Below, piece after piece: positions 2,098 to 10,000 of a DNA stretch of 10,000 nt (its first letter is position 1; each line of letters starts with the position of its first letter). The translations under genes were made by a program, and so were the position numbers. Origin of the DNA: Rheinheimera sp. (lineage in GTDB: Bacteria; Pseudomonadota; Gammaproteobacteria; Enterobacterales; Alteromonadaceae). Under the pieces are notes generated by a model. The model had not been told where the DNA came from, made no database searches, and saw only the letters and a program-made list of their open reading frames with translations. The DNA lies in NCBI RefSeq assembly GCF_020217005.1, contig NZ_JAIWOI010000320.1, positions 1 through 10,000 on the forward strand, given 5' to 3'.

Positions 2098-2589
2098 TTA
2101 CAAACTTAAAGTCCGCTCACCGCGGGAAATGCCCGACACACCACTTCTGACTGTTTCCAGTATTTGGGTACCGTTTAAAGCCTGAATAAAAGCTTCGAGT
2201 TTGTCCGAAGTACCCACCACCTGAATGGTATAGGTATTGGCTGTGATATCAATAATCTGACCACGGAAGATGTCAGCGCAGCGTTTTACTTCTTCGCGTT
2301 GCTCTGCTGTGGTTTTGACTTTGACCATCATCAGTTCACGTTCGATATGAGCTGACTCGCTTAAATCGGCCAACTTGACCACTTCAATTAGCTTGTGCAG
2401 TTGCTTGGTGATTTGTTCGATGACCTGATCATCACCGCGTGTCACCAGCGTCAGACGTGAGATGGTTGGGTCTTCAGTGGCCGCTACTGTGAGTGAATCA
2501 ATGTTATAACCGCGCTGGGCAAATAAACCTACAACACGGGCTAAAGCGCCGGACTCGTTTTCCAGCAATACAGATAAAATATGCCGCAT
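2098..2589 (-). CDS. ilvH: Acetolactate synthase isozyme III-type regulatory (small) subunit
   Basis: The regulatory subunit of acetohydroxyacid synthase, which binds valine and confers feedback inhibition on the catalytic subunit while stimulating its activity. At 163 residues it has the length I recall for E. coli IlvH. Residues 1-80 form an ACT domain beginning MRHILSVLLENESGALARVV; Asn11, Gly14 and Asn29 fall at positions known in E. coli IlvH for valine binding or sensitivity. The C-terminal half contains EVKRCADIFRGQIIDIT and ends with a GVSGISRG motif typical of the family. Its ATG begins one base after the ilvI stop codon, so it is translated from the same transcript, probably by coupling. 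Feedback sensitivity is inferred from the retained residues. Confidence 0.97.
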   Translation of the reverse strand: MRHILSVLLENESGALARVVGLFAQRGYNIDSLTVAATEDPTISRLTLVTRGDDQVIEQITKQLHKLIEVVKLADLSESAHIERELMMVKVKTTAEQREEVKRCADIFRGQIIDITANTYTIQVVGTSDKLEAFIQALNGTQILETVRSGVSGISRGERTLSL

Positions 2590-2590
2590 C

Positions 2591-4330
2591 TTAAGTCCGC
2601 TCCGTTTTGCTTAAAAACATCTCATTCATAGCACCACCTGGTATTTGCATTGGATAGACATGCTCTGTTGGGTCGACATGAATATCTAAAAACACCAGTT
2701 TGTCTTTGAGGGCAAAAGCACGTTCTAAAGCGGGCTCTAACTCTTCGGCTTTGGTGACACGAATCCCTACATGGCCATAAGCTTCAGCCAGCTTTACAAA
2801 GTCAGGCAAGGAATCCATATAAGAGCTGGAATAGCGGCTGTCATAGTTCATATCCTGCCACTGCTTCACCATGCCTAAATAACCGTTGTTCAGGTTGATG
2901 ATTTTTACATTCAGGCCATATTGTTTGCAGGTCGACAGCTCCTGAATATTCATCTGAATAGAACCTTCGCCAGTGACGCACACTACTTCAGCTTCAGGGT
3001 AATGCAGTTTGACACCCATAGCGGCTGGTAAACCAAAGCCCATAGTGCCGAGGCCACCCGAGTTGATCCAGCGATTTGGCTTATCAAATTTGTAATATTG
3101 AGCAGCAAACATCTGGTGCTGACCTACGTCGGACGTGACATAAGCATCACCTTTGGTATGGCGATGCACAGCTTCAATCACGGCCTGAGGTTTTAAATGC
3201 GCCGCGCTTTGCTCATAGCGGCCGCCATGCACTTCACGCCACTGCTGAATTTGTTGCCACCAGTGCCCCAGTGCCTGCTGATCCAACTGACCTTGATTTT
3301 TTTCCAGCTGCTGCAGCATTTCCTGCAATACAGGTTTGACTAAGCCAACAATAGGAATATGTGCATTGACGGTTTTGGAGATGCTGGCCGGGTCAATGTC
3401 GATGTGAATAATGGTCGCATTCGGACAGAATTTTTTGGTGGCGTTGGTGACACGATCATCAAAGCGTGCGCCCACGGCAAAAATCACATCAGCATTATGC
3501 ATCACCTGGTTAGCTTCATAACTGCCGTGCATGCCCAACATACCGATAAACTGTGGGTCTGATGCAGGGTAAGCGCCCAAGCCCATTAAGGTATTGGTGA
3601 CCGGAATATTCAGCTTGCGTGCTAAAGTCGTCAGCTCTTCTGAGGCCTGACCTAAAATTACGCCACCGCCTGAATACAGCACAGGCTTTTTCGCCGCTAA
3701 CAAAGTAGTCAGGGCTTTTTTAATCTGGCCGGGATGGCCTTTGGCGTTCGGGTTGTATGAGCGCAGCTTGATATCTTTTGGATACTCATAAGGGAACTTC
3801 TGACTGGGTATCGTCATATCCTTGGGAATATCTAGTACTACAGGACCAGGCCGGCCGCTTTGCGCTATATAAAAGGCTTTTTTCACTAAATACGGAATAT
3901 CTTCAGGGCGGCGAACCGACATATTGTGTTTCACAATAGGCCGGGAAATACCCAACATATCGGTTTCCTGAAAGGCATCGTCGCCAATCAAATGGCTCAT
4001 CACCTGACCACAGATCACTACCATAGGAATAGAATCCATATAAGCAGTGGCTATGCCGGTAACCGCATTAGTAGCACCTGGGCCGGATGTGACGAGCACT
4101 ACACCAGCTTTGCCGCTTGCTCTTGCGTAGGCGTCCGCCATATGGGTCGCGGCTTGCTCATGGCGGACCAGTACGTGTTTCACCTGATGCTGTTGGAACA
4201 TCGCATCGTAAATGTGTAACACGGCACCGCCGGGGTAACCATACACATACTCTACGCCTTCGTCAGCTAAGGCGCGGATCAGCATGGCTCCACCAGACAG
4301 CAGTTCTGGTTGGGTGTTTTGGCTTGTCAT
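2591..4330 (-). CDS. ilvI: Acetolactate synthase isozyme III-type catalytic (large) subunit
   Basis: A thiamine-diphosphate enzyme joining two pyruvates into acetolactate, or pyruvate with 2-oxobutyrate into acetohydroxybutyrate, the first common step of valine, leucine and isoleucine synthesis. It is cytoplasmic and also binds Mg2+ and FAD. Domains in order are the N-terminal pyrimidine-binding domain (about 10-175) with catalytic Glu58 in RHEQ, the central FAD-type domain (about 200-340, with [10 protein letters not shown]), and the C-terminal diphosphate-binding domain (about 380-550). Its GDG-type motif reads GEG (454-456) and continues to the Asn-Asn pair near 481-482, as in related gammaproteobacterial enzymes I recall. 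The C-terminus LSKTERT matches E. coli IlvI. The length of 579 is normal. It is followed by ilvH after one base. The start at 4330 has only a weak GAGA upstream. The leader carries hairpins and a possible leader peptide. Confidence 0.97.
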
Positions 4331-4360
4331 GATAAAGGTCTCATAGTTTGCACGTGCGAA

Positions 4361-4396
4361 CTTTAAGCCCTATTGCGGGCGCAATAAGGCTTAAAG
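4361..4396 (-). promoter_or_regulatory. Strong 17-bp hairpin in the ilvI leader
   Basis: Two 17-base arms, 4361-4377 and 4380-4396, are separated by two bases. On the plus strand there is one C-A mismatch (4370 with 4387); in RNA from the minus strand that pair is G-U, so the stem is unbroken only in the ilvI-sense transcript. No U-tract follows, so it is not an ordinary terminator. It lies 31 bases before the ilvI start and could be part of an attenuation switch, a processing site or an operator palindrome. Confidence 0.6.
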
Positions 4397-4405
4397 CAAA
4401 AATCA

Positions 4406-4427
4406 CCGCTCTGCTTACACAGAACAG
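4406..4427 (-). promoter_or_regulatory. Second leader hairpin followed by a short U-run
   Basis: In the minus-strand RNA, CUGUUCUG and CAGAGCGG form an 8-bp stem with two G-U wobbles around a six-base loop; on the plus strand those two pairs are C-A mismatches. It is followed two bases later by a run of five U. It may be a pause or weak terminator at the start of the leader ORF. A further 6-bp stem, GACAGA/TCTGTC (4452-4457 with 4466-4471), lies upstream. Confidence 0.4.
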
Positions 4428-4430
4428 CAT

Positions 4431-4682
4431 TAATTTTCTTTTACGTGGACGGACAGAGTAAGGGGTCTGTCAAACAAACTAATCACGCCTGGTTAGTGTT
4501 GACTCGTTGGTCGTTTTTTTATTTAGCAGGCTTGATGGCTAATTTAAGGGAAGTGGCTTGGAAAGTCGACTAATTATTAATGAAAGATTTGCACTCACAT
4601 CGTCCCTGATGTTCGCCTTCGGCAGCATTGGCTTTTAGTTAAGGCGTTATACGGCTGAAACACTAAACTTAAAGCACAAATT
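4431..4682. other. Intergenic region carrying the presumed ilvIH promoter
   Basis: No gene is supported. For the minus strand, an extended -10-like TGCTAAATA (complement of 4520-4528) and a TTGACA (complement of 4469-4474) are visible, but neither has a convincing partner at proper spacing. The region is AT-rich in 4505-4590, as expected for an Lrp-type control region, but no site can be assigned. I see no clear terminator after the large gene ending at 4683. Confidence 0.4.
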
Positions 4683-7600
4683 CTATCGGTCCTTCTTTTG
4701 ATTTATAGGTAGTGCAAAAGTAATTTTTCCGTCCTGCATAATTTGCATCACTTGAACAGTAATCTGTTGGCCAACTTTATATTTACGCAAAATATCTACA
4801 TTGGTTGGTAGCGCACCGCGATGAAGCAACCCACTACGAGCACCGATTCGAAGAAATATGCCGTATTCCTTAATGCCTGTAACACAGGCATTATAAGTGT
4901 CTCCAACGACTAGTTTTTCGGTTCCAATATCTGTCTTTAATACGGGGCCTGCGTAACCTAGCTCTAGCCCTTTTGCAGTTGATTTCAGAATTTCGACACA
5001 AATATTACTACCGATAGGAAATTCTCTGGTGAGGCTTATCCAGTCTGAACAACTATTTTTGTGAAGTAACCCTTGTTGTCCCTCGATGGCGATAAGCAGA
5101 CCATAGGACTGTTGATCTATGACATTTCCTTCATAACTTCTACCTATATCCAGTGCGGCATGTTTATCCAATCCAACCAGAATAAAGTCCCTTTCTGGGA
5201 TCAATTTAAGTGCATAAAAATGGTACACTTTCCCTTTAGTAATTGAACAGCCATCTCGAGTATTTAAATAGGCAGCACGCAGGCCGATCTCTAATTCAAT
5301 GACATAGCTTTTTTTGCCTTTAGGAGCAGTAACCCGTCCTTTGAGTGGAAGTCCCTCGTCCAGGCTGCGACGAGCCTCTACCCATGCAGGTAATTCTCTG
5401 CGCCCATGTAAAATTTTTAACCAATTGGTAACTTCAATTGGTAACCCAGTGGTGATCAGTAGATCTGTGACGAAACTAATCGTTCTGAACCAGTGCGCGT
5501 TATTTGGGCAGGCTTCAATACGTTCCGCCAGAATTGCTGCGAATTCAACTGAAGCTTTATGCAGCGGAGCCGCAGCGATGAACTTGGCGGCCAGTAGTGG
5601 CCACTCCGGTTTATCTCTTGAGTGGTTCAGCCAAACTGCAGCACGCTCGGTGAAATCCGCTGCGTGGAACTTTTGCTCTAGTAGCTTTTCACAAACAAAA
5701 CCCCATTCTTCGGCTTCCTCTCGACCTACTAGCCACTCCGCGCCGAGTTGTAATAGCTCGCTGACCGCCAGTACCTCGGGCTGAACATGAATATCACATT
5801 GTTTTAGCAAGTCTTGCCAGATAAGAGCCCAGTCGGACCTGTCTTCACGCCCTTTTAACCAATCAACTCCAAGTCGTAACAGTTGGTTTAGCTCCAGCAC
5901 CTCGGGCTGAACATGAATATCACATTGTTTCAGTAAGTCTTGCCAGACATATGACCACTCGGCCATATCTTCCCGGCCATTCAACCAATGAACGCCGTTG
6001 CGCAACAGTTGGCTGAGTTCCGGCCCCTCGATTTGAGCATCATATTGTTTCAACAAGTCTTGCCAGACATATGACCACTCGACCGTGTCTTCTCGGCCTT
6101 CCAGCCAATGAACGCCCTGACGCAACAGTTCGCTGAGTTCCAGTTCCCTGGGCTGAGCAGCACATTGTCTCAGCAAGTCTCGCCAGACATATGACCACAC
6201 AGCGCTGCCTTCACGACCTTTCAACCAATGAACACCCCGACGCAACAGTTGGTTGAAATCCAGCCCATAAAGCAGAGTATCACTATGCTTCATCAAATCT
6301 TGCCAGATATACGACCACTCCACATTGTCTTCGCGACCATTTAACCAATCCACGCCAAGGTATAGTAGCTCGTTGAGTGCCAACTCTTTGGGCAGAGCAT
6401 CATGTTTCTCCAGCAAGGTTCGCCAGACATATGACCACTTGGGTTTGTCTTCCCTACCTCTCAACCAAAGAACGCCAAGGCGTAATATTTCGTTGAGTTC
6501 CAGCCCGCCAGGCTGAGCATCATGCTGTTCCAACAGATCTCGCCATACATGTGGCCACCCTGCTATATCTTCACGTTCTTTCAACCAGTCGACGCCAAGA
6601 TGCAACAGTTTACTGAGCTCCGGTTCTTGAGGCTGAGCTTCATGAGGTTTAAGTAAGGCTCGCCAGACATAATTCCACTCGGAGTCGTTTTCATGTCTGG
6701 CCAGCCAGTCTTTAGCTAGGCTGGCTAGCTCGATAGCTTGTGGACTATGGAGATCTGCCAAAGCATAAAGATCTTGCAGTACAAAAGCCCAATCAGGGCC
6801 GTCGTTTTCTGCATGTAAACGACGCATCCCCAGAATCAGGGTAGGATCATTATTCCAGTCCGGCTCATCATCCACAGGTAAAAGCTTCTTCCAAACGATG
6901 TGCCAGTCAGGGCGTCGTAACCGACGCTGCAGCCAATCCAGTCCAATATTGCTCCAGATATGATGATGATCAGGATCATCTTGTAGGCATCGCTCCCAAA
7001 CATAAGACCATGTAGGGTGGCTCATCCTTAAAGCATCAGTTAGATGCTCTGAGGCCCAGGTAAGTAGCTCACTATGCTTGGGATAGTGATTAACTAAATG
7101 TCCCCAGCATACAGACCAAGCTTTATAGGCCGCGGCTAAGTATGTTAGTGCTTTGGCAAGTAAATCTGGACCGAGGGTTTGACTAATGCTGGGGGCTGCC
7201 GTTGACCAGCATGCCCAACTGGTTGCAATATCTGCCTGGCAATCTGCATCAAGCGTCAGTTGTGCGTGCTTTTCGGCCCATGCTTGAGCACACTGCTTCG
7301 CGAGAAGAGGGTGGTTTAAGATATTTAGTCGTTCTATAGCAAGCCCTTGTTCGCGCCCAGAGAACAAGCGCAGCAGTTGAGTAACTAAGCCGAAATCGTT
7401 TTCGGTTAACGCACGCCGGAAAACGCCAACCAGATCATGGGTATAGGCTATGTCATTTGCAGGCTTGCGCAAGGAAAGGTACAGCTCGTTGGCTAAATGC
7501 GGATGTGTGAGGCGAACTATTTGGCCTTCTTCCCCGGCTTCTAGTAGGCTAAAATCGCCTTCACTATTTAGTGTTGCTAGCTTTTCGCGGTCGTTTTCGG

Positions 7601-9077
7601 TTAGCCAGTTATAGGGTGCACGCAGATAGAGACGGTTCAGCGCTAAGGGGAGATAAAGGGCTTCATCGAGGCCATTGAGGCGAACCCGTTCACCGAAACG
7701 TTGGGCAAACGCTTTAAGATCACCGTGCGCCAACTCCACAGCCAGCGAGATAAACAAGCCATTGTCTTCTTGGGTTGCCTGAGAAAATGCAATTCCGCGC
7801 TGTACAGTCTGACCCGTGCGCTCTGTGTACCAAGCCTCGATCTCAGCAGCTTCGTGTGTTGCAATGGTTTCGACAGTTTCAAGATGTAAATCAAAACCAC
7901 GATAAGTGGCAGCCTCTCTGAAGGATTCTGCAAACTCTGTTGGGCCGCAGGTTAGAATCATTGGCCATGCTTTTTGGTCGCATTCATCGATAAATGCGCC
8001 TAAGCGGCTTAGATCAAGCCGATTTCGCGCGTTGCGGTCGTAAAGATCGTCGATTGCAATAAAATCTGGTCGCCACTCATTAGGTGCATCTGCAATGGAT
8101 CGCAGAACAGGCTCAAGTAATTCGGCTTGCCCTTTAAGCCAAAGTACTCGCCAACCTTCTGCAACCAGACGCTCAACTGACTGAAGCAGGAGCACACTCT
8201 TACCAACACCGGAGCGACCACTCAGCCAGAAGACTCGAGCTTCACTCTTGAGGTCTCGCTGGCTTAGATCTTTTCGTTCGAGAACCTTGGCATACAAGAC
8301 ATCCAGGCGATGGGCGCGTTGCATGTACTGTTGATCACGTAGCCGGGTCAGCGTGATTTCGCGTCCAACTTCTAGATATGGGCTGGGATGTTGCGACAAT
8401 CGAAAATCTGTGGCTGTCAGTAGCTGTCCAGGCAATTCGTGTGTCAGTCGGTTTTTTGCAAAATATTCGCATATATCATCGCGAATACGCTGTGCATCCG
8501 CAGCCGACGGTGCACGGCTTAAAGCGCGATCTAATGCAAAGCGCAGAAAAGCGTAAGGATCCTTTAGATGCCGCCATACCGCAACGATGGCTCGCCACCA
8601 TGGATCTGGTTCGATGCGAGGAGATAAAAGACGTCCTTGCTTGAGAAGTTCGTTAATTGTTGAGCGTGCCGGGTGCGTTGAGGGAATGTCGTTCCACTGG
8701 ATTGTAGAGTTGCCTTGCGAGGCGATAAGATTAAATTTCACCTGAGCACGCAAATCTGAGTAATACGTAGCCAGAAACCGCTCGATAGTCAGAATTTCGG
8801 CGGCAGCATCCTTCAATGTGTCTTTTGTCAGAGTGCGTTTAACCTGAATACAAATTAAATTGCCATTCACGTCATGCTTGGCTAAATCAGAAATAGCTTC
8901 CAGAAAGACCTTGCCAGCGTCATTCAGACTAGCCTCTTGTCCGGCGAGAGATTCGGCAAACTCAGCTAGGTAAAGGCGCAACTGGTAGTCAAAGCCAGCC
9001 AAGGCGTAAATACCACCTAGCGCTCGCCGCTTTTCCCGTAGCTCATAATTCGAGAGGATAGATGTAATATTTTCCAT
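4683..9077 (-). CDS. Nuclease-STAND ATPase-helical repeat-S1 protein; putative Avs-like anti-phage defence protein (1464 aa)
   Basis: The N-terminus (about 20-125) looks like a DUF4297/Cap4-type PD-(D/E)XK DNA endonuclease: GFDYQ (28-32), Glu60, Asp64 and the Gln78-Val-Lys80 motif. A STAND/NACHT-like P-loop ATPase follows (about 235-540), with Walker A GRSGVGKS (287-294), Walker B FIAIDD (339-344), a sensor-like strand MILTCGP (373-379) and a winged-helix-like end with LTHPHLANELY (523-533). Residues 654-1200 hold about 15 helical repeats anchored on a Trp. The C-terminus contains S1/OB folds at about 1311-1376 and 1390-1457, and a likely degenerate third at 1245-1304. By analogy with Avs proteins, the repeats would sense a phage or cell component, ATP-driven oligomerisation would follow, and the nuclease would cut DNA. 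Start: an in-frame stop lies 24 bases upstream and the next Met is residue 252. No good Shine-Dalgarno sequence is seen. Defence function is inferred. Confidence 0.85.
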   Translation of the reverse strand: MENITSILSNYELREKRRALGGIYALAGFDYQLRLYLAEFAESLAGQEASLNDAGKVFLEAISDLAKHDVNGNLICIQVKRTLTKDTLKDAAAEILTIERFLATYYSDLRAQVKFNLIASQGNSTIQWNDIPSTHPARSTINELLKQGRLLSPRIEPDPWWRAIVAVWRHLKDPYAFLRFALDRALSRAPSAADAQRIRDDICEYFAKNRLTHELPGQLLTATDFRLSQHPSPYLEVGREITLTRLRDQQYMQRAHRLDVLYAKVLERKDLSQRDLKSEARVFWLSGRSGVGKSVLLLQSVERLVAEGWRVLWLKGQAELLEPVLRSIADAPNEWRPDFIAIDDLYDRNARNRLDLSRLGAFIDECDQKAWPMILTCGPTEFAESFREAATYRGFDLHLETVETIATHEAAEIEAWYTERTGQTVQRGIAFSQATQEDNGLFISLAVELAHGDLKAFAQRFGERVRLNGLDEALYLPLALNRLYLRAPYNWLTENDREKLATLNSEGDFSLLEAGEEGQIVRLTHPHLANELYLSLRKPANDIAYTHDLVGVFRRALTENDFGLVTQLLRLFSGREQGLAIERLNILNHPLLAKQCAQAWAEKHAQLTLDADCQADIATSWACWSTAAPSISQTLGPDLLAKALTYLAAAYKAWSVCWGHLVNHYPKHSELLTWASEHLTDALRMSHPTWSYVWERCLQDDPDHHHIWSNIGLDWLQRRLRRPDWHIVWKKLLPVDDEPDWNNDPTLILGMRRLHAENDGPDWAFVLQDLYALADLHSPQAIELASLAKDWLARHENDSEWNYVWRALLKPHEAQPQEPELSKLLHLGVDWLKEREDIAGWPHVWRDLLEQHDAQPGGLELNEILRLGVLWLRGREDKPKWSYVWRTLLEKHDALPKELALNELLYLGVDWLNGREDNVEWSYIWQDLMKHSDTLLYGLDFNQLLRRGVHWLKGREGSAVWSYVWRDLLRQCAAQPRELELSELLRQGVHWLEGREDTVEWSYVWQDLLKQYDAQIEGPELSQLLRNGVHWLNGREDMAEWSYVWQDLLKQCDIHVQPEVLELNQLLRLGVDWLKGREDRSDWALIWQDLLKQCDIHVQPEVLAVSELLQLGAEWLVGREEAEEWGFVCEKLLEQKFHAADFTERAAVWLNHSRDKPEWPLLAAKFIAAAPLHKASVEFAAILAERIEACPNNAHWFRTISFVTDLLITTGLPIEVTNWLKILHGRRELPAWVEARRSLDEGLPLKGRVTAPKGKKSYVIELEIGLRAAYLNTRDGCSITKGKVYHFYALKLIPERDFILVGLDKHAALDIGRSYEGNVIDQQSYGLLIAIEGQQGLLHKNSCSDWISLTREFPIGSNICVEILKSTAKGLELGYAGPVLKTDIGTEKLVVGDTYNACVTGIKEYGIFLRIGARSGLLHRGALPTNVDILRKYKVGQQITVQVMQIMQDGKITFALPINQKKDR
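5700..6709 (-). repeat. In-gene tandem repeat: about nine units of 120-126 bp
   Basis: The coding units are anchored on Trp801, 841, 881, 921, 961, 1001, 1041, 1083 and 1125, giving an exact 40-residue period followed by two steps of 42. The consensus is W-S-Y-V-W-x-D-L-L-x-Q, then L-x-x-L-L-R-x-G-V-x-W-L-x-G-R-E-D. Similarity is also strong in DNA: 27 bases are identical at 5935-5961 and 6055-6081 (120 apart), and 32 are identical at 5773-5804 and 5899-5930 (126 apart). Older, diverged units precede and follow (Trp654, 690, 725, 763, 1159, 1196). Each unit is probably a two-helix TPR-like repeat. Confidence 0.95.
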
Positions 9078-9182: not shown

Positions 9183-9383
9183 ATGCACAAGTTAGTGGAT
9201 GTATTTTGCGATGTCGATGATTTTTTCGCTGTCTCCATCCCTGAATGGGAAAAACTCTGTCAACTGATGAAGCAGCCAAACGTCAGCGCTGTGATTTTTA
9301 TTAGCATGAGTGAAGTCGTTACGTTCATTATCTTCTTCCAAATGTCCAAACATCATGGTTTTGGCAATACAGAACCACTATAA
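9183..9383 (+). pseudogene. Decayed N-terminal fragment of an IS982-family transposase
   Basis: The reading frame begins MHKLVDVFCDVDDFFAVSIP and continues with PEWEKL, which is the characteristic start of IS982-family transposases. A SMSEVVTFIIFFQMSKHH stretch near residues 41-58 matches the next conserved block. Only about 60 of the roughly 290-300 residues remain and the catalytic part is missing. Between these blocks, the frame with the family's basic Arg-Gln-Arg motif is a different one (around 9266-9294), which suggests compensating frameshifts. It stops at 9381-9383. I could not find terminal inverted repeats. It is evidence of past insertion next to the defence gene, not an active element. 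Confidence 0.75.
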
Positions 9384-9481
9384 GTCGCTGTCCGACCCTT
9401 TGACGCTCAACGTTTTTATATATCAAACGAAAACACATGTAGGGTAAGGCTCGCTACCAAAGGGTTGGAGTGCTCGCAATT

Positions 9482-9781
9482 CTACTTCAGATGTTTTTGC
9501 GGCAACTGTGGTTGACCTAACACTGCAACTATCAGAATAAAGCCATATTCTTTTGTGAAGTACGCTGTATGTTTGCCAATGGGGAAATAGAATCCGTTTG
9601 GGTAGATGTCGTGGCAAGGTCTGCCTAAATCCGGGTTATCGGCTAACATTTGCAAGCCAGATATCAGGCTTGCTTTGTACTTTTGCCACTGCGACTCAGA
9701 AAAGTTTTGAATCGTGTAGTGTCTGATTTGTTGTAAATGAGTCTGAGCCAGGCTGCTTAATTTGTATCTTTTCTTTTGCAT
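9482..9781 (-). CDS. parE: ParE/RelE-superfamily toxin of a type II toxin-antitoxin pair
   Basis: A 99-residue basic protein with the ParE/RelE fold pattern: YKLSSLAQTHLQQIRHYT at the N-terminus, a helix with the KY pair, then LADNPDLGRPCHDI (46-59), and a C-terminal strand series FPIGKHTAYF...GFILIVAVLG ending QKHLK. ParE-type members poison DNA gyrase and RelE-type members cleave mRNA at the ribosome; the NPDLGR and KH(T)xxF motifs favour ParE. The start at 9781 lies 8 bases after the upstream antitoxin stop, so the two are co-transcribed and probably translationally coupled. Length is normal. The gyrase target is inferred from the family. Confidence 0.88.
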   Translation of the reverse strand: MQKKRYKLSSLAQTHLQQIRHYTIQNFSESQWQKYKASLISGLQMLADNPDLGRPCHDIYPNGFYFPIGKHTAYFTKEYGFILIVAVLGQPQLPQKHLK

Positions 9782-9789
9782 TTCAGTGG

Positions 9790-10000
9790 TTACAGAGCGC
9801 TAAGAAACTCTTCGCCGTCAACAACATTACCCTTTGCTAAGTCTTCTTTCGCAGATTTGAAGCAATGTTTAAGGTAATCCGCTTTCATCACCTCTAGCGC
9901 CTGGTAGTCATGCATAGACATCACGACAACAGCATCTTTATTGTTTTTGCTGATTTTGATCGGTTCGCGCTGAGCGTTTAGAAGTAGCTCACCGAAATTT
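9790..10000 (-). CDS. Phd/YefM-type antitoxin, partial (N-terminus beyond window)
   Basis: Only the last 69 codons are visible, stopping with TAA at 9790-9792. The sequence begins NFGELLLNAQREPIKISKNN, followed by DAVVVMSMHDYQALEVM, which is the family's dimeric DNA-binding domain; its first 10-15 residues lie outside the window. The tail (KHCFKSAKEDLAKGNVVDGE) is the toxin-neutralising region. Antitoxins of this family bind their toxin and repress their own promoter, which would lie past 10000. It is directly upstream of the ParE-type toxin, the usual antitoxin-first order. Confidence 0.88.
   Translation of the reverse strand, partial: NFGELLLNAQREPIKISKNNKDAVVVMSMHDYQALEVMKADYLKHCFKSAKEDLAKGNVVDGEEFLSAL

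Follow-up and report, generated by a model that had tools for sequence, protein, structure and literature searches.

A single-gene nuclease-STAND-repeat-S1 protein of Rheinheimera as a probable Avs/NLR-type antiphage receptor whose core resembles SAMD9

We analysed a 10 kb contig of Rheinheimera sp. (NZ_JAIWOI010000320.1; hereafter the window, which is the entire contig, the gene neighbourhood being readable within those 10 kb only). On its minus strand, at 4683..9077, lies a single gene whose 1464-residue product joins a nuclease, a STAND nucleoside triphosphatase (NTPase), helical repeats and three OB/S1 barrels, as seen from an open reading frame (ORF) scan, Pfam, homologues, an alignment and AlphaFold models. 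We read it as probably a one-gene antiphage receptor of the NLR/Avs type, acting by abortive infection, with a STAND chassis like that of SAMD9; by analogy, the protein probably kills infected cells. We favour a role in defence because effectors are swapped among relatives, one relative has phage genes around it and another sits on a plasmid next to AbiE, the gene is patchily present, and the repeats of relatives change. The effector-STAND-repeat-S1 order had been proposed in an original prediction made from the DNA letters, and Pfam profiles, fold matches and effector swapping bear it out.

The ORF contains no internal stops and occurs in a single copy in its genome. A protein search with the full query (7,988 candidates scored) returned at least 69 homologous proteins at E ≤1e-5, the best eight of which are 56-64% identical to it with a query coverage of 99-100%. 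Hosts include Pectobacterium, Shewanella, Pseudomonas, Laribacter, Enterobacter and Delftia, and many homologues are metagenomic; their database names, where present, are mostly 'S1 RNA-binding domain-containing protein' or 'P-loop NTPase'. Conservation was read from an alignment of 28 sequences (the query and 27 homologues), motifs were counted over 70 sequences, query included, and structures were taken from two AlphaFold2 models covering residues 1-645 (mean pLDDT 85.1) and 620-1464 (mean pLDDT 86.0).

The protein begins with a PD-(D/E)xK nuclease of the Cap4/DUF4297/LmuA type (residues 1-212; 8442..9077, minus strand, as are all parts of the gene given below), recognised by PADLOC and by fold matches. 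The PADLOC match to LmuA covers residues 26-224 (E 1.6e-5), and both the nuclease fold and the conserved acidic and QxK residues of the Cap4/DUF4297/LmuA-like class are present. The predicted catalytic residues E60, D64 and Q78-x-K80 (residues 60-80; 8838..8900) are the same in all 28 aligned sequences, the query among them, as are G22, F29 and Q32; the DUF4297/Cap4-type nuclease with Glu60, Asp64 and QVK at 78-80 that had been predicted is thus well founded. Nuclease motifs were found in 63-65 of the 70 sequences, and at least one nuclease pattern is missing in seven (P0064, P0067, P0066, P0028, P0038, P0047 and P0057). P0064 begins 35 residues ahead of its own Walker A motif, the N-terminus of P0067 is unrelated, and in P0066 the nuclease start is displaced by an extension.

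Further support for a defence role comes from relatives in which the nuclease itself is exchanged. Residues 230-640 alone, used as a query that reaches relatives with other N-termini, retrieved at least 90 proteins at E ≤1e-6, and four of these were scanned with Pfam. P0075 consists of Trypsin_2, nSTAND5 and S1, P0079 of CHAT, nSTAND5 and S1, and P0078 of TIR_2 and nSTAND5 (30.9 bits, under the cut-off of 34), with no S1 match in Pfam. Trypsin, TIR or CHAT replaces the nuclease in these three scanned relatives, which is effector swapping on one chassis. Such exchange of N-terminal effectors on a single NTPase chassis is a usual trait of NLR/Avs-type immunity. The remaining scanned protein, P0095, an S1-terminated Streptomyces protein of 2062 residues, matched nSTAND5 (25.3 bits, again under 34), S1 and S1_RRP5; its N-terminus gave no Pfam match, and by eye residues 1-300 resemble an alpha/beta hydrolase.

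The chassis itself is a STAND NTPase with a helical extension (residues 213-560, end approximate; 7398..8441), matched by the Pfam profile nSTAND_NTPase5 (PF25199) at 45.7 bits, above the cut-off of 34. Its Walker A motif GRSGVGKS (residues 287-294; 8196..8219) recurs as G[RK]SGxGKS in every one of the 70 sequences (with the query); in the alignment the core residues G287, S289, G290, G292, K293 and S294 are invariant, and R288 is nearly so. In the Walker B motif FIAIDD (residues 339-344; 8046..8063) D343 and D344 are invariant. The P-loop ATPase predicted to be intact is therefore confirmed as such by profile and conservation alike. H525-P526-H527 (7497..7505), an HPH motif whose role we only infer, is invariant in the 28-sequence alignment and present in 69 of 70 sequences.

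Judged from the AlphaFold model, the closest solved structure to the NTPase half is SAMD9 (9zjs/9zjr/9zjv), with Avs behind it (Foldseek; Avs4, 8dgf, E 6.5e-7; Avs5, 9jap and 9nc9, E 1.7e-6). The Avs/STAND reading of the original prediction thus stands in its Avs/NLR-like logic, but the nearest solved NTPase relative is SAMD9, ahead of Avs. Against a fold library of viral proteins, five matches were found at E ≤0.001, the best being a Siphoviridae protein named NLR-like (2.1e-5). SAMD9 was absent among the 50 VIA matches listed for the C-terminal half, an absence that excludes nothing.

The likeness to SAMD9 consists in a STAND-like NTPase, helical repeats and a C-terminal OB domain in the same order. 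The Walker A lysine is intact here (GRSGVGKS), whereas the SAMD9 family carries GG[TS] and is defined by the glycine that replaces this lysine (PMC5445408). Pfam gave no AlbA_2 or SIR2 match at E ≤1, an LmuA-type PD-(D/E)xK nuclease being found instead; both domains are lost in some SAMD9-family members (Mekhedov et al., PMC5445408). The family profile searched against the PDB gave no sequence-level match to SAMD9. With Avs the protein shares the single gene, the N-terminal effector, the central STAND NTPase and the C-terminal helical solenoid, and it differs in its 40-residue W-motif repeats, its three C-terminal S1/OB barrels and its nSTAND5 NTPase (by Pfam), the NTPase of Avs5 being nSTAND3 (PMC12931631; this and the papers cited below are cited from the part of their text that was available). 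A SAMD9 likeness of Avs5 has already been published (PMC12931631), and Avs3 is a further comparison for the Cap4 domain (named in PMC11291478). By profile, PADLOC gave only LmuA at E ≤1, the Avs coverage of its library being unchecked.

Between the NTPase and the barrels lies an alpha-solenoid (residues 561-1210; 5448..7397), recognised by AlphaFold helices and by Foldseek matches to helical-repeat proteins. Within it, motif spacing, a DNA array and unit comparison define tandem repeats of 40-42 residues with the pattern WLxGREDRxEWxxVWxxLL (residues 791-1132; 5682..6707). The W motif occurs ten times, eight of the nine intervals measuring 40-42 residues, and the DNA carries a 120-bp tandem array at 5793-6610. 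The model of residues 620-1464 has 36 helices ahead of the barrels, the W-motif repeats forming part of a longer solenoid. Of the roughly 15 helical repeats that had been predicted, the helical-repeat solenoid stands, and the count is corrected to ten W motifs inside that longer solenoid. Attempts to place the repeats in a known family were abandoned: 48 Pfam families at E ≤1 included no coherent one, and a repeat profile gave seven weak PDB matches at E ≤10, the best being to a designed repeat protein at 0.065, followed by RRP5 at 0.49.

The repeats change among relatives in both number and sequence. Across 288 units, taken from the 45 proteins that have three or more units of 40 residues, mean unit identity is 65% inside one protein and 45% between proteins, and some arrays are near-homogeneous (P0004, 93%; P0053, 95%). 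Several proteins that share an identical 600-residue core and identical last 250 residues are nevertheless of unequal length, in whole steps of exactly 40 residues: P0003 and P0015, both from Pectobacterium polaris, by 320 residues (11 vs 3 motifs), P0019 and P0020 by 40, P0019 and P0025 by 40, and P0020 and P0025 by 80; P0026 is 43 and 83 residues apart in length from two of these proteins. To locate variable positions, we used 15 proteins, each having five or more units that are on average 78% identical or more, grouped into 10 lineages by consensus unit. Unit differences were highest at position 12 (0.62 by lineage) and position 16 (0.49), the next value being 0.30. In a max-statistic shuffle inside lineages the maximum averaged 0.35 and never reached 0.62 in 20,000 rounds; the same two positions ranked top in all three split-half trials. 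Judged from these sequences, the concentration of change at positions 12 and 16 is firm at the protein level. Because relatives alter unit number and these two positions, the solenoid is the likeliest sensor.

Signs of selection were sought by comparing nonsynonymous with synonymous change (pN/pS) at positions 3, 12, 13, 14, 16 and 17 with the remaining 34. In L003, which corresponds to P0009 of the choosing set, pN/pS was 1.57 vs 0.37. L011, which has no exact counterpart in that set, showed zero synonymous changes at the six positions and a pN/pS of 0.20 elsewhere. Pooled over 64 pairs, the values were 1.08 vs 0.39. Such comparisons suggest diversifying selection in two genes; in general it is not shown.

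Where repeats are near-identical, units vary mainly at positions 12 and 16, others at about half that rate, and draw on a small residue palette, on account of which we considered a modular reading head whose units are added, deleted and re-lettered to retarget the receptor, as in TAL-effector or PUF repeats; we regard this as improbable. Position 12 is A/T/S/N/P/G in 289 of 308 units, position 13 is H/Y/F in 300 and position 16 is Q/R in 267, and in the AlphaFold model positions 12 and 16 share one helix (positions 11-20, in the unit at residue 831). Such a head would possibly read a repetitive peptide or, with help from the S1 barrels, a phage RNA. The spacing 12-13-16 and the NYxxQ and SYxxR types seem PUF-like to us, an impression that we do not count as a result. 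Against a reading head, Puf structures appeared only among generic solenoids in the structure matches of the C-terminal half, and no PUF chain matched the repeat profile in the PDB at E ≤10. With a mean net charge of -2.5, the units are acidic, which argues against RNA reading.

The C-terminal S1/OB folds of the original prediction appear in the AlphaFold model as three beta-barrels. The first is OB-like (residues 1244-1309; 5151..5348; AlphaFold strands and a family-profile match to ribosomal S1), the second an S1/OB barrel (residues 1314-1375; 4953..5138; AlphaFold strands and family profile) and the third a canonical S1 domain (residues 1394-1455; 4713..4898). Pfam places the S1 RNA-binding domain (PF00575) in two stretches at 44.4 bits, above the cut-off of 22. 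Positions 1180-1337 of the family profile match residues 82-260 of ribosomal S1 in the PDB search (E 2.4e-26), ribosomal protein S1 is the top Foldseek match of the C-terminal tail, and in structure comparison the last barrel matches the S1 domains of YabR and PNPase. By analogy, the barrels probably bind RNA or ribosomes. Used alone as a query, the tail (residues 1130-1464) found 18 proteins, none of them new. In P0010, the C-terminus holds four matches to a simple S1 motif, so the number of tail domains may be changeable too.

The gene is sparsely distributed: at E ≤1e-20 it was found in one of 22 genomes of the genus and two of 369 of the class, its own included. Flank comparison with nine relatives from the genus showed no counterpart of the segment 4571..9475 at the matching site. 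The downstream neighbour, which by eye we take to be ilvI (acetolactate synthase large subunit), is present in 22 of 22 genus genomes. Similarity on this side ends at ~4570-4594 in eight of the nine fetched relatives, short copies of an element at 4582-4626 aside; in the ninth (G002) it breaks at 4474, and 4500-4570 is placed apart. In three of the nine, the toxin-antitoxin side is found close to ilvI, at ~60 bp (G003), ~1.1 kb of other DNA (G012) and ~1.35 kb (G005), and the remaining six gave no toxin-antitoxin-side match in the fetched stretch. In G005, a DUF2971 gene (L060, G005:C30, 8780-9568) occupies the ilvI-side site, which suggests a small cargo hot spot. Since the fill between ilvI and the toxin-antitoxin side differs, the site is variable and the STAND gene is one of its cargoes.

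Both partners of the toxin-antitoxin pair that had been noted beside the gene have profile matches, and the pair is real: the toxin matches ParE (Pfam, 51.5 bits vs a cut-off of 23) and the antitoxin the Phd family (NCBIfam, 27.6 vs 20.8; Pfam, 28.8, slightly under 29.8), the antitoxin ORF extending past the contig end. The transposase remnant proposed alongside it found no support, the ORF at 9183-9383 giving no match in Pfam or in a plasmid tblastn search and one weak, unrelated match in NCBIfam. The 35-45 bp element at 4582-4626 has seven other similar places in the genome, and four copies at 145-bp spacing lie beside ilvI in G009 (L053); an integron cassette was considered here and dropped, and we read the element as a dispersed intergenic repeat.

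Relatives were also found among phage genes and on a plasmid. The IMG/VR viral contig L071 carries a full-length relative at 2363-6688 (46% identity in the best segment), with an HTH_36 gene and a small ORF on one side and a DUF1133/antitermination-like gene on the other; DNA methylase, holin, phage metallopeptidase, DUF2280 and terminase genes follow downstream. The plasmid search matched two records, one across most of the query. Around the Enterobacter hormaechei plasmid copy, AbiEii, colicin V, HicA, DUF4041 and integrase genes lie within 15 kb, and an integrase gene lies near the relative in L011. Named phage genomes gave no match to the gene, and the E. coli set none to the Enterobacter copy.

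From these parts we propose a mechanism, most of it by homology. At rest, the NTPase would keep the nuclease inactive. In the least certain step, a phage component would bind the repeat solenoid, and the S1/OB barrels might bind RNA or ribosome-associated nucleic acid, gating or placing the protein. The NTPases would then oligomerise with ATP, and the Cap4-type nucleases, once brought together, would degrade DNA, such that the cell would die ahead of phage release. DUF4297-HerA works along these lines, degrading both host and phage DNA (PMC11291478).

The barrels could themselves be the sensor, detecting a phage-induced change in mRNA or ribosomes or an arrest of host translation, with the nuclease as executor and the repeats tuning oligomerisation or binding a host partner. 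Their match to ribosomal protein S1, the YabR and PNPase likeness of the last barrel, and the retention of the tail with a trypsin or CHAT effector all fit this idea, but repeat number varies between proteins otherwise identical in the compared parts (the rate of change of S1 was not compared), and the TIR relative P0078 lacks an S1 match, which makes S1 dispensable in the wider chassis. We consider it unlikely that the tail senses in place of the solenoid; the two explanations overlap, and the likelihoods given here for alternatives are not mutually exclusive.

An anti-plasmid or inter-element conflict gene, carried as cargo by prophages, plasmids and a chromosomal hot spot and directed at competing plasmids or superinfecting prophages over lytic phages, would agree with the relatives among phage genes, on a plasmid with an integrase gene and near an integrase in L011, and with a nuclease resembling LmuA of Lamassu, an anti-plasmid/phage system (PMC10586767). 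The single-gene STAND layout instead resembles Avs, whose proteins sense phage proteins (PMC13245274), and we find this alternative quite unlikely. A housekeeping RNA-binding regulator is suggested by automatic names ('S1 RNA-binding domain-containing protein', 'Polyribonucleotide nucleotidyltransferase') and by an S1 match above cut-off. It is very improbable given the patchy presence, the nuclease here and the TIR, trypsin or CHAT in relatives, the differing fill of the site, and the relatives among phage genes and on a plasmid.

Several observations weigh against the antiphage receptor proposed here. The link to SAMD9 exists at the fold level only: Foldseek aligns the whole chain loosely (TM 0.34, root-mean-square deviation 22), and the 55 matches of the family profile to the PDB at E ≤0.1 include no SAMD9 or Avs chain. 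The window gene's own repeats are only 52% alike, rapid change being visible in relatives and not in this copy, and assembly collapse of near-identical repeats is a real caveat for the pairs that differ in repeat number. Below positions 12 and 16, ranks vary with weighting (14, 13, 3 by protein; 40, 14, 28, 22 by lineage). L007, which is outside the choosing set, has a pN/pS of 0.49 vs 0.41, with no clear excess; four genes with divergent repeats (the window gene, L002, L004 and L027) give 0.76 vs 0.41, below 1; and whole-unit dN/dS is 0.25-0.45 in the seven genes, out of nine, for which it was computable. G005, which is without the STAND gene, keeps beside ilvI a stretch 89.9% identical to window 9476-10000, so the toxin-antitoxin pair is independent of the gene. 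A phage phenotype for any member was not found in the literature searched.

The neighbourhoods of homologues belong on the same side of the balance. A Pfam scan of 19 neighbouring ORFs at nine genomic-contig loci (E 1e-5) matched eight (AMP-binding, integrase, L-PSP, HD, proline utilisation, ParA-type, class I tRNA synthetase and LysR), none of them a known defence family, and left 11 without a match; PADLOC at 1e-5 matched none of ten neighbours. A wider PADLOC scan at 1e-8 covered 140 of 142 ORFs at 10 loci (L005:9777-10019 and L010:2438-2728 were dropped) and had no control set. Its first 70 neighbours gave 10 families with one member each, some of them probable cross-matches (RtcR, BrxHI), and the second 70 (L009-L011 and L027) gave 38, those listed including PD-Lambda-1, AbiEi/AbiEii, Vsr (3.7e-35) and mREase_IV (1.2e-18). 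Only AbiE and PD-Lambda-1 could be assigned by annotation to named ORFs, in L027, where they fit the plasmid-copy genes. With these matches uncontrolled and Vsr and mREase_IV unplaced, defence-island enrichment of homologues, which the original prediction had put forward as a check, is not shown, and we neither assert nor reject it. Defence genes do flank the plasmid copy, and another copy is surrounded by phage genes.

Other known systems share individual parts. The nuclease is like that of Lamassu LmuA and HerA-associated DUF4297, but here it is fused with STAND, repeats and S1 in one chain, and the window, at whose limits the contig ends, holds no second long unassigned ORF that could be an SMC-like LmuB partner. 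Near-identical repeats, number polymorphism and change at certain positions recall the fungal HNWD, TPR and ANK NLRs, in which selection acts at certain codons (PMC4986451); the present protein differs in being bacterial, in repeat type and in its nuclease effector, and the evidence for selection comes from few genes and is mixed. Prokaryotic NTP-dependent conflict systems include REases as effectors and OB domains of the S1-like or cold-shock kind, and Kaur et al. (2020; PMC7159879) list S1-like OB domains among the parts of related systems, the available portion of that paper describing no nuclease-STAND-repeat-S1 chain. No bacterial system of this layout appeared in the titles and abstract starts of the literature found, subscription papers being mostly outside the search. 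To that extent the predicted novelty of the S1-terminated layout holds, although the C-terminal OB of SAMD9 is a precedent in kind. Given this search and the related parts in Kaur et al., we place the gene with the Avs and NLR receptors, as a variant whose core resembles SAMD9.

If the antiphage interpretation is true, bacteria possess a SAMD9-like immune chassis with an intact NTPase and interchangeable nuclease, TIR, trypsin and CHAT effectors. This would add to the Avs5 likeness and offer a tractable model for the switching of SAMD9-type cores and the origin of the STAND-solenoid-OB layout. Receptor diversification in the style of fungal NLRs would then reach bacteria, and the small number of variable positions would ease tests of recognition rules.

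A promoter scan of the window found one site against 6.3 expected, and four terminators were found against 5.2 expected. An Nramp-like transporter ORF lies at 789-2033 (Pfam, 29.4 bits, slightly under the cut-off of 29.8). Among distant relatives, L014 and L015, from Microvirga and Sphingomonas records, share the coordinates 9932-14569 and an ORF length of 1545 residues, a possible case of recent transfer or strain overlap.
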